Positions 53,932 to 58,046 of a stretch of 64,000 bases of DNA are shown one piece after another. The DNA is from Nymphaea colorata. Its lineage: Eukaryota > Streptophyta > Magnoliopsida > Nymphaeales > Nymphaeaceae. The position numbers and the translations under genes are program-made. Positions within the stretch are counted from its first letter, which is position 1, and every line of letters starts with the position of its first letter. The stretch is taken from the NCBI RefSeq assembly GCF_008831285.2, contig NC_045146.1, positions 3,930,001 to 3,994,000 of the forward strand. The letters run 5' to 3'. The notes under the pieces are model-generated. The model was not told where the DNA came from and made no database searches. It saw only the letters and a list, made by a program, of their open reading frames with translations.

Positions 53932-53939
53932 CATGCATC
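53932..53939. repeat. hAT target-site duplication, left (CATGCATC)
   Basis: Eight bases CATGCATC precede the left terminus of the 3.4-kb hAT element and are repeated exactly at 57352-57359. Confidence 0.9.
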
Positions 53940-56900
53940 TAGGGATGTCAACGGATCGGATCCGAATCGGATATCCGATCCGAAATGCTCTTACAAAGTC
54001 GGATATGGTAACCAATTTGACATCCGATTAAGAAATCGGATCGGATTCGGATTTAAGAAATAACATCCGATCGGATACGGATTCGGATTCAGTTTTAAGT
54101 AAATATCCGATCAGATATTAACTACATAACATCCGATCGGATACGGATTCGGATTCAGTTTTAAGTAAATATCCGATCGGATACTAACTGTAACCTGATA
54201 TCCGAATATCCGAATCCGAACTTCAACATGATATCCGAATCCGAACCACGTGAGCCCGATATCCGAATCCGGATTCAGTTTTAAGTAAATATTCGATTGA
54301 ATGTAACCTGATATCCGAATCCGAACTTCAAGATGATATCCGAATCCGAACCACGTGAGCCCGATATCCGAATCCGAACTGTGTGAGCCGTGAATGTTGA
54401 GTTGTGGTGTAGCCTCCAGGTTTTGAAATGTAAACCTAAGACAACATATGATCTTTGGCCAAAAGGTCTAGCCAAACCCACTAACTTAACACCATGAATG
54501 AATTAGAACATAAATATTATATATGGTATAATCTCATTAAGAGCTGATTTTTTCATGGAGTTGCATGTAACAATATTTTTATAGAAATTATGTACACCGT
54601 TTAACTTAAAATATTTTAAAATATATATAATTAATTAACTAAATAATACTATGTTTAATTAATTTCTTTTTTAATTAAGTAAACTATTATAGTTAAGACA
54701 TCAATTAAGCATGATATCATAAATAATATATTTACTTAATTGAAATAATAAAGAAAACTTCAATGAAGAAATTCAATAAAATGGAAATTTTAAAAAATAT
54801 GAAAAAGACACTTTTAAAGCTACAATTTTTTTAATGGACCGTAATGTCAAATTCGTTACAAGAATAGCTATATTATATATTTAAAAAATAACAAGTTTAA
54901 AAAAAAATATTGGCATGTACTTCACCTATGAAAAAAAAAGTTGATAGCAAAAAATATAATTTTTAAAAAAGCAAAACTTAAAAAAAAAATATGTTTTATA
55001 ATAAATAGAAATCTTAATCGCATTATGATATTCATTTTAAGTTTCATTGTGTATAATCTCACTATGAAAAACTGCTAAACTTATAAAAAAGTTTTATTTA
55101 TCAAATTAGCAATTTACTTATTTAATCAATCAAGTAAATTACTTTGTATAATCATACAATTCATTTAAAAGGCTTAAGTATTCGATACGTAACACATAAT
55201 TCACAAACTTGAAAACAAGAGCCTCTAACTAAGTAGGAAAACAACAAATTGTATGATTTAATAAACTATCTTATATTATATATCGTTGGAGTGATTATAC
55301 AGTTTTATGTATAAAAAACAACTATTTGATGGAGGTAAGAGGAATAATAAATTATTTGTTATATCAATGAACATTCATTTTACAGACGTAACACAAACTA
55401 TTTCAATTAACTCAATGAAATGAAAAGAAAACATTAAATAATGTCTTTTTTTAAATGAGAAATAATATGGATCACCTAATTTAATAATTCTTAATAAGAA
55501 ATCATCACAAAATCATAATTTACTTAATTAAAATATGTTATTATTTAAAATAGACCAATCAATGTTCAATATGCATAGTTAATTTGAAAAAAATACTAAA
55601 GTTAAACATCTTACTGACCGTGTCTCTATGTCTCTGTCTGTGTCGGCTCTAGTTTCCTGACCGTGTTAACATCTTACTGACCGTGTTAACATCTTACTGT
55701 GGTGCTTTCCAAATGTTATGTCATAGATGACCAGCCTATCAATAAAATGCATTCTAAGTGTGTTCTTCTTAGTTTACGGGCATTTACTTGCCATGTCTTC
55801 CTCTTATGCTGTGCGTTGGCCTTGTTGGGACTTCGAAGAACGGGAATTGATCTATAACTGGTTTTTACATTTTAATGAAATCACACGGATCACCTTGTTG
55901 ACTGCCTGCCTATCGTCCTGAATTTCTTTTTCAGCTTAGCTTTTCTTGTTTTCCCCTTTTGAATGAGTTGTCAAGTCTTTCATGCGTGAATTGAGCATCC
56001 TGTCTTTTTGCTAATCTGAAACATGTTCCACCGTAAGTGATTCAAGTTGTTACTCTCGTTCTATGTAGATGCATGTCATTTATTCTCCTATGCATGGGCT
56101 TATCTCATTTGTTCTAACTGCTCAATCTTGCCCATTTTAATATTCACTGGTGTTAATTTTTTAGTTTATTACTATAGCTTATGGTATTTTTAATCCTTTG
56201 GTAGCAATTGTCAGGGAAGCTGCTGTGAATTTCTGGTTTTTAAAAGCCAGTTTTCTGACTTGATGCTTACTCATGCAGCACTATTGAGTTGAATACGCTT
56301 GAATAATGGCTAGTTGTTGTGTACTCAGTTCTGCCAATGCATATCCATACCTCTTTATCATGAGGGTAGGGACCGTATCAGCATTTGATGGATGTTTTTG
56401 CATGATTCAGTAAAGTGAATACACTGCCATCTCTTACAAATTTCTCTTTTTCTTAGAAACAATTTTTTCCTGTTCTGCAATTGTTTTTTGAAGTTCATAG
56501 GTGAAGGATCTCTTGACAATGGAAGGAGCCATTCTGTTGACAGAGACAAACCATTTTATCTTTGTTTACTGCATATTCAATTGTAACTTGTATTTATTGT
56601 TAAGAGTTCTTATTTGTAAAGGAATTTTGACTTTTAGTTTTTATGTAGTTGAGCTTTTCTTTTTAAATTCTAGTTGATTGCATATATCAACTAATGCCCC
56701 TAAAGCTAGCTTCCTAATCACATGGTTTGAAATTGGATTTTGCAGAAAGCATAGCAAGTTGGTGACTATGGATTGCAGGCTTAAAGCAACAGCACATGCA
56801 TCAACAAGAAATTGAATTCAATGTTTGCCACAAGCCCCTCAAGGATCACGCCGCAGCTTTTCCTAATGAGGGTAGAACATAAAAGTCGGATTCGGATATA

Positions 56901-57351
56901 ACATAAAAGTCTGATTCGGATATCTTCTGGTGGATTGGGATATAACATAAAAGTCGGATCTGATTCGGATATAACATAAAAGTCGGATTCGGATATCTTT
57001 GGTGGATTCGGATATAACATAAAAGTCGGATCGGATTCGGATATAAAAAGTTGAATTCGGATCGGATTCGGATAAATTTAAAATTCGGATCGAATTCGGA
57101 TAAAATTTGAAGTTCGGATTCGGATCGGATTCAAAATAACTTAAAAATCGGATTCGGATCGGATTCAAAATAACTTAAAAATCGGATTCGGATCGGATTC
57201 GGATATGGATTTTAAAATCGGATTCGGATATGAGATAAACTTTTTTTCATCCGAATCCGAATTCATATCCGAATCCGAACATATGAATATCCGAAAAATC
57301 GGATATGGTAAAAGATACATCCGATCTGAATCCGATCCGTTGACATCCCTA
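53940..57351. mobile_element. 3.4-kb non-autonomous hAT element
   Basis: Both ends start TAGGGATGTCAACGG when read inward; the inverted match is exact for 22 bases (53940-53961 and 57330-57351). Perfect 8-bp duplications CATGCATC flank it, diagnostic of hAT. Subterminal regions (53940-54385 and 56878-57351) are dense arrays of GGATTCGGAT / ATCCGAATCC words, probably transposase-binding arrays by analogy with known hAT elements. No transposase (BED zinc finger, RNase H-like core or hATC block) was recognised inside. The core has an AT-rich part (54500-55620) and a less AT-rich part (55640-56870) with a splice-acceptor-like site at 56745. The latter could be captured host sequence, which I infer from composition only. 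Confidence 0.88.
54062..54193. repeat. 66-bp tandem duplication in hAT left subterminal array
   Basis: A 66-bp unit beginning AACATCCGATCGGATACGG starts at 54062 and again at 54128. A second longer-range duplication (ATATCCGAATCCGAACCACG) occurs at about 54231 and 54336. The left array seems to have grown by segmental duplication. Confidence 0.8.
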
Positions 57352-57359
57352 CATGCATC

Positions 57360-58046
57360 CCATATAAGCCTAAGCCTGGTTAAAATAAAAAATGATTATT
57401 TAAAAATATAAAATAAAAAATTTGAATAAATATATTATTAATAAAATAAAAATAATATTAAAAACTTATGGGGCTGAATTGTTCCCATCGGGCTGGTTTT
57501 TTCCTTGCCTGAACCTGGGCCCCATTCGGGTCGCGTACCTGATGCCCATCTCTTCGGTTTCCTTGTTAGCCGACACAGCTTCTTGTGTGTCTGTCTTATG
57601 AAAAATACACCATTTCTTACAAAAATTTGACTTGATATTTCTTACAAAAATTTGACTTGATACTAAAGGACACTATTTCATGTATCTGTCACATATTTTC
57701 ACATATGAATCTGCCTCAATTTTTAAAATGCATACATGTAACAATAACATACTTTTGCCAAACTCTCTACAAAGGGCCTTTGGGATTCAACATTTTTTGT
57801 AGCAAGCAAATTAAATTAGGCAAACTCCTACCAGTTATGGCGTACATGATCGATCTGGTGCTTTGAAACTCTTATTCTTCTTTTAACTTGAGCTCTCGAG
57901 TACAATTCCATCATCAATGGAGCTTTTGCTGGTTAAAAGAGACTGCATCGATTAACGTTGCACGATAGCACATAACATGTACCACAGTGGCTTCAAAACA
58001 GCAACCATAATATCATATAGCTGCAAAAGGTTTTGCATAAGGGTCT
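57360..58046. other. Intergenic sequence
   Basis: No gene is recognised. The segment 57365-57550 has GGGCC / GGCCC words around an AT-rich tract and could be another decayed GC-tipped element. A tandem of TTTCTTACAAAAATTTGACT occurs near 57612-57655. Confidence 0.4.

Follow-up and report, generated by a model that had tools for sequence, protein, structure and literature searches.

A 3412-bp element at positions 53940-57351 of the window, the whole stretch of 64,000 nucleotides of Nymphaea colorata DNA analysed here, appears to be a non-autonomous member of a two-component transposon family of the Ac/Ds (hAT) type, a reading to which we give a probability of roughly 0.88. The assignment rests on its inverted ends and flanking 8-bp duplications, on hundreds of related ends elsewhere in the genome, on a transposase-bearing partner that shares its ends and arrays, and on the lack of coding sequence in the element itself. 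Its parts, in window coordinates, are as follows.

53932-53939, no strand: left target-site duplication, CATGCATC, exact at 8 of 8 bases
53940-53961, plus strand: left terminal inverted repeat, 22 bp, equal to the right end reversed
53940-54377, no strand: left subterminal array, 438 bp, with 31 TCGGAT/ATCCGA by motif count
54378-55609, no strand: AT-rich inner left region, partly common to other family members, including L024, L011 and L020
55610-55619, no strand: joint of 10 filler bases, at which about 1.6 kb of the sister element L026 is missing
55693-56292, plus strand: captured DNA, 92% identical to C1:15390171-15390764
56358-56677, plus strand: captured DNA, 93% identical to C7:16087552-16087876
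56674-56876, no strand: inner right segment common to other family members
56886-57351, no strand: right subterminal array, 466 bp, with 36 TCGGAT/ATCCGA by motif count
57330-57351, minus strand: right terminal inverted repeat, 22 bp, identical over its length to the left
57352-57359, no strand: right target-site duplication, CATGCATC, exact at 8 of 8 bases

The terminal inverted repeat reads TAGGGATGTCAACGGATCGGAT, with 22 of 22 bases identical between the two ends. A 20-base end, searched against the window with up to three mismatches, matched twice, both times exactly at the ends of the element, and the mean count in 100 dinucleotide shuffles of the window was 0. A CAGGG or TAGGG start is typical of hAT terminal inverted repeats, and the end found here presumably begins like the end of Ac. 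No stop-to-stop frame of 120 amino acids or more occurs in the element, and the family transposase described below gave no tblastn match at E<1e-5 to L001 and L059, the two loci that jointly cover it. Four frames of at least 150 amino acids elsewhere in the window matched nothing in Pfam at E up to 0.01. Just beyond the right duplication, window positions 57367-57503 have at least 39 matches in the genome at 72-86% identity, so the element adjoins another repeat.

The hexamer TCGGAT, or its complement ATCCGA, is confined to the two arrays, with no occurrence in the 2508 bp between them. When the outer 450 and 482 bp were shuffled 500 times, the mean counts were 2.7 and 3.5 and the maxima 8 and 10. 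The sequence GGATTCGGAT is found in the window only inside the element, 13 times on the plus strand and 8 times on the minus strand. Tandem Repeats Finder calls the ends simple arrays, as would be expected if a chance simple-sequence tract happened to lie beside chance direct repeats, with no transposon involved. The shuffle counts of the hexamer and of the end, together with recurrence of the end at 988 genome positions against none for its reversed control, rule this out, and duplications at independent sites, an empty site and a linked transposase, all described below, leave it practically no chance. The original prediction, which described a hAT insertion with exact 8-bp duplications, a 22-bp exact inverted terminus, repeat ends hundreds of bases long and no transposase, is borne out in each of these respects; as to hAT identity, the duplications, the inverted ends, the recurring end and the transposase-bearing relatives all agree.

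A 23-mer taken from the end has 152 matches in the genome at one mismatch or fewer, and the 988 matches belong to a 20-mer at two mismatches or fewer (495 and 493 by strand); reversed controls gave 0 in both searches. If both ends of most copies were counted, the family would comprise some hundreds of elements. Twenty relatives, a non-random sample drawn from the best DNA matches and from ends paired by coordinate, all have paired ends, spaced 2580-8142 bp apart. Their 8-bp duplications are exact in 13 and match at 7 of 8 bases in five more; in the remaining two, L018 and L022, the match is below 7 of 8. Five of the relatives, L016, L017, L018, L019 and L022, on C4 and C1, have flanks that are 80-99% identical, which points to one insertion multiplied together with its surroundings, as part of a larger repeat or a segmental duplication. 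Counting these five as one leaves 16 independent relatives, 13 with exact duplications and three at 7 of 8. Copies of the terminus with fresh duplications elsewhere, whose absence had been named beforehand as grounds for rejecting a hAT insertion, are present, with 18 of the 20 relatives at 7 or 8 of 8 bases and independent sites among them.

An empty site is available for one relative, L012. Among the 40 of 50 candidates scored, at least 38 other places in the genome run through the joint without interruption, at 78-96% identity, and the other two are the two sides of the occupied site itself. The repeat surrounding L012 looks, by eye, like a retrotransposon. For the window copy, none of the 40 scored out of 149 candidates in its own genome spans the joint, and among these the left flank matched only itself.

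Transposase genes lie between family ends in L024 (8142 bp), L011 (7986 bp) and L020 (6676 bp). The L024 frame has 654 open codons and then a stop where L011 reads on, and it carries the hAT RNase-H and hATC dimerisation domains (PF14372, 2.9e-31; PF05699, 1.4e-27). For L024, no zf-BED domain is listed at E up to 0.1; in the N-terminus of L020, zf-BED is listed at E 0.0027, with 18.1 bits against a Pfam cut-off of 20.6, and zinc-binding cysteines and histidines can be seen by eye. The original prediction had proposed looking for a relative with the same ends, a BED finger and an hATC domain; the hATC domain, and RNase-H with it, is present in such a relative (L024), but the BED finger stays below the Pfam cut-off (L020). 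The closest solved structure is that of Hermes (2.4e-19 to 5.4e-18). In that alignment the first aspartate and the C-x2-H, PTRWNST and ASE stretches align, and the second acidic, catalytic stretch falls in a gap.

With the L024 transposase as query, five genome copies were found at 95-100% identity, L024 itself included, one of them matching over only 588 of the 654 residues. The four other than L024 (95-99%) carry one or two stops each; because of these and the stop in the L024 frame, present activity of the partner is only putative. All five adjoin a family end and array. In L071 and L072, with no and two mismatches respectively, end and array lie 1.3-1.4 kb beyond the gene, and for two further broken copies, on C1 and C2, the end lies 1.4-1.6 kb beyond it by coordinates. 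The window element aligns with L024 over its left 1-866 at 73% identity and over 387 bp at the right at 75%, and hexamer arrays are present in both. Among 30 hATC loci picked by domain (L029-L058), a family end at three mismatches or fewer was found only beside L052, which is the same as L011, within flanks of 1.5 kb that are maybe too short. Pfam, searched at E up to 0.1, gave no hit to a 165-aa antisense frame in L024. Three of the domain-picked loci, L029, L033 and L045, on C14 and C6, have hAT transposase-like frames of 668-670 amino acids, free of stops and 44-46% identical to the family transposase; these may be domesticated genes.

Motif totals over both arrays, in copies without transposase, are 67 in the window element, 68 in L026, 56 in L010, 41 in L013 and 22 in L016, against 60 in L024, 55 in L020 and 46 in L011, which bear one. 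The two ranges overlap, so the idea that non-autonomous copies gained more sites than transposase-bearing ones is unsupported. Of 21 elements, L027 has no motif in its right array when the same counting rule is applied, and the other 20 have between 9 and 37 there; the flank-sharing group of L016-L019 and L022 is poor in motifs, with 9-15 per end.

Conservation of the motif was assessed over the outer 180 bp of each end in 12 representatives (L011, L012, L015-L017, L019, L022, L023 and L026 being dropped, and L020 and L024, about 98% alike, both kept). At the left end, departure from consensus was 0.034 at motif positions outside CpG versus 0.106 in spacers, and at the right end 0.039 versus 0.176; none of 127 circular shifts of the motif mask on the left, and none of 129 on the right, reached the observed contrast, in a design where motif columns were taken from the consensus and so are slightly biased toward conserved columns. 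CpG positions within motif columns change often (0.093 left, 0.129 right), and 26 of 31 of these changes at the left and 34 of 40 at the right are C to T or G to A, the pattern that methylation decay would produce. When all 21 elements are used and CpG included, the left contrast is weaker, being matched by 10 of 157 shifts, and the right one is clear, with 0 of 157. Lower variation at motif positions, as read from these alignments, fits selection keeping the motif among copies that moved.

By analogy with better-studied systems, the TCGGAT arrays are likely to be binding sites for the transposase, a putative role that the conservation supports without proving. The Ac transposase binds AAACGG repeats and requires about 200 bp per end (PMC3260210), DNA-binding proteins of hAT origin often prefer CGG (PMC8097297), which TCGGAT contains, and the BED domains of Hermes act on subterminal repeats (PMC10368747).

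It could also be that the element is a true hAT transposon in which only the outer 150-200 bp serve transposition, the inner array being neutral slippage, a refinement that does not exclude the main reading and that we hold at slightly less than even odds. In most of eight elements compared, the outer motifs sit at constant places (for example 28>, 102> and 126< at the left, and 58>, 98>, 129<, 148< and 165< at the right), while the inner array varies in length and number. The Hermes work (PMC10368747) speaks against additional transposase bound inside the ends, which counsels caution against taking every site in a long array as used. On the other hand, the inner array of many members keeps the exact hexamer at high density, and the motif-poor group, being one insertion that may have lost motifs later, does not demonstrate that a small number of motifs is enough. 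The conservation test, which spans the outer 180 bp only, is silent on the inner array.

Both halves of the window element match L026 on C6. The right inner part is identical at 1247 of 1247 bases, the left inner part differs by 7 substitutions in 1214 aligned bases, and the arrays differ by 0 and 5 substitutions and by 4 and 25 gap bases; L026 carries about 1.6 kb extra in the middle. The duplications of the two differ, which makes them separate insertions. Judged by this alignment, the window copy is a shortened sister of the C6 element. Either it arose through a deletion in a parent resembling L026, or it shares a common parent with L026; the first is the simpler course. The 10 filler bases at the joint repeat, by eye, sequence that lies about 50 bp to the right; filler of this sort can result from the repair of a break. 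In L026, a 203-aa frame was without a Pfam match (E up to 0.1).

The right interior is a mosaic. In the inner left part, GC content falls to 14-31% per 100 bases. Captured non-family DNA, which the original prediction did not mention, makes up much of the right interior, 55620-56876, and this right-interior mosaic is also present in L026, L014 and L028. The donor stretch on C1 stops 12 bases short of the start codon of an AtTam9-family frame (77 aa; Pfam PF25111, 5.7e-41), and by inspection the captured C1 piece appears to be non-coding, apparently a 5'-UTR intron. Sharing of this AtTam9-adjacent piece by the same four elements might suggest that it gives them a job beyond that of filler, as promoter, small RNA source or regulatory sequence. 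We consider this very improbable: the element has no frame of 120 amino acids or more, and comparable filler is known in Ds2 and Pack-TYPE elements. Upstream of the donor frame, at L063:716-765, a stretch resembles, by eye, a decayed hAT end, so an older family copy may once have adjoined the donor.

The window element illustrates an already known kind well; it is not something new. SIMPLEHAT and SIMPLEGUY of Arabidopsis are non-autonomous hAT-like elements with simple-sequence ends, to which it is likened by description and not by sequence. With the Ds2 class of the maize Ac/Ds system it shares 8-bp duplications, CGG-containing subterminal hexamers, internal loss with filler, and a separate transposase element that drives movement; Ds2 elements keep Ac ends and filler, and a few hold gene pieces, including introns (PMC3260210). 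Compared with what that source describes for Ac/Ds, the hexamer is TCGGAT instead of AAACGG, the subterminal region extends over 438 bp (31 hexamers) and 466 bp (36 hexamers) instead of about 200 bp, and the inverted end is 22 bp instead of 11 bp (PMC3260210). Such ends are not private to the window element, since transposase-bearing relatives and a second hAT family, described below, have arrays as well. Pack-TYPE hAT elements of maize and rice are likewise non-autonomous and hold captured gene DNA, but here the captured DNA is non-coding (an apparent intron) plus the C7 stretch, and no exon was found in it (PMC8903248). Hermes, also moved by a hAT transposase, has subterminal repeats unequally arranged at its two ends, which are AAG(T/C) in 17 and 14 copies there and dense hexamer arrays here (PMC10368747). 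No report of TCGGAT as a transposon feature was found in the literature searched, Repbase being outside the comparison; at least 19 papers contain one or more of four motif strings, and none of 15 of them, judged by title, concerns a comparable transposon family.

If the main reading is right, transposase from the partner would bind the CGG-containing hexamer TCGGAT at both ends through its BED finger, and the bound transposase would pair the two ends, cut at the TAGGG tips and insert the element at a cut staggered by 8 bp. The interior would have been shortened and filled with host DNA, probably through faulty repair after excision.

A second hAT family, found at L073:1-320 and L074:20-340 (C13:16590421 and C11:5542963), has an array of GCTCGA/AGCTCG. 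Its transposase frames are without stops and 37-38% identical to the transposase of the window element's family. One end, in each of the two copies, holds 10 GCTCGA/TCGAGC over 320 bp, whereas 300 mononucleotide shuffles gave means of 0.1 and never more than 2; the apparent end in L074 reads TAGGGCTGCACACG. The opposite end was not found, the two copies being alike there for only 144 bp. This array suggests that the window element's family is probably not alone in having long simple-motif ends. A bolder proposal, which we think doubtful and offer tentatively, is that each hAT family of this genome has its own simple-motif array (TCGGAT in one, GCTCGA in the other), that motif and BED specificity change together, and that arrays grown by slippage isolate families from one another.

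The definition of a hAT element is unchanged by the window element. What it brings to light is a large plant hAT family in which copies with and without transposase have dense, easily counted hexamer arrays in common. Such a family is useful for the study of array evolution and of the pickup of host DNA by hAT elements, and it offers a natural way to ask what number of subterminal sites a hAT transposase requires.
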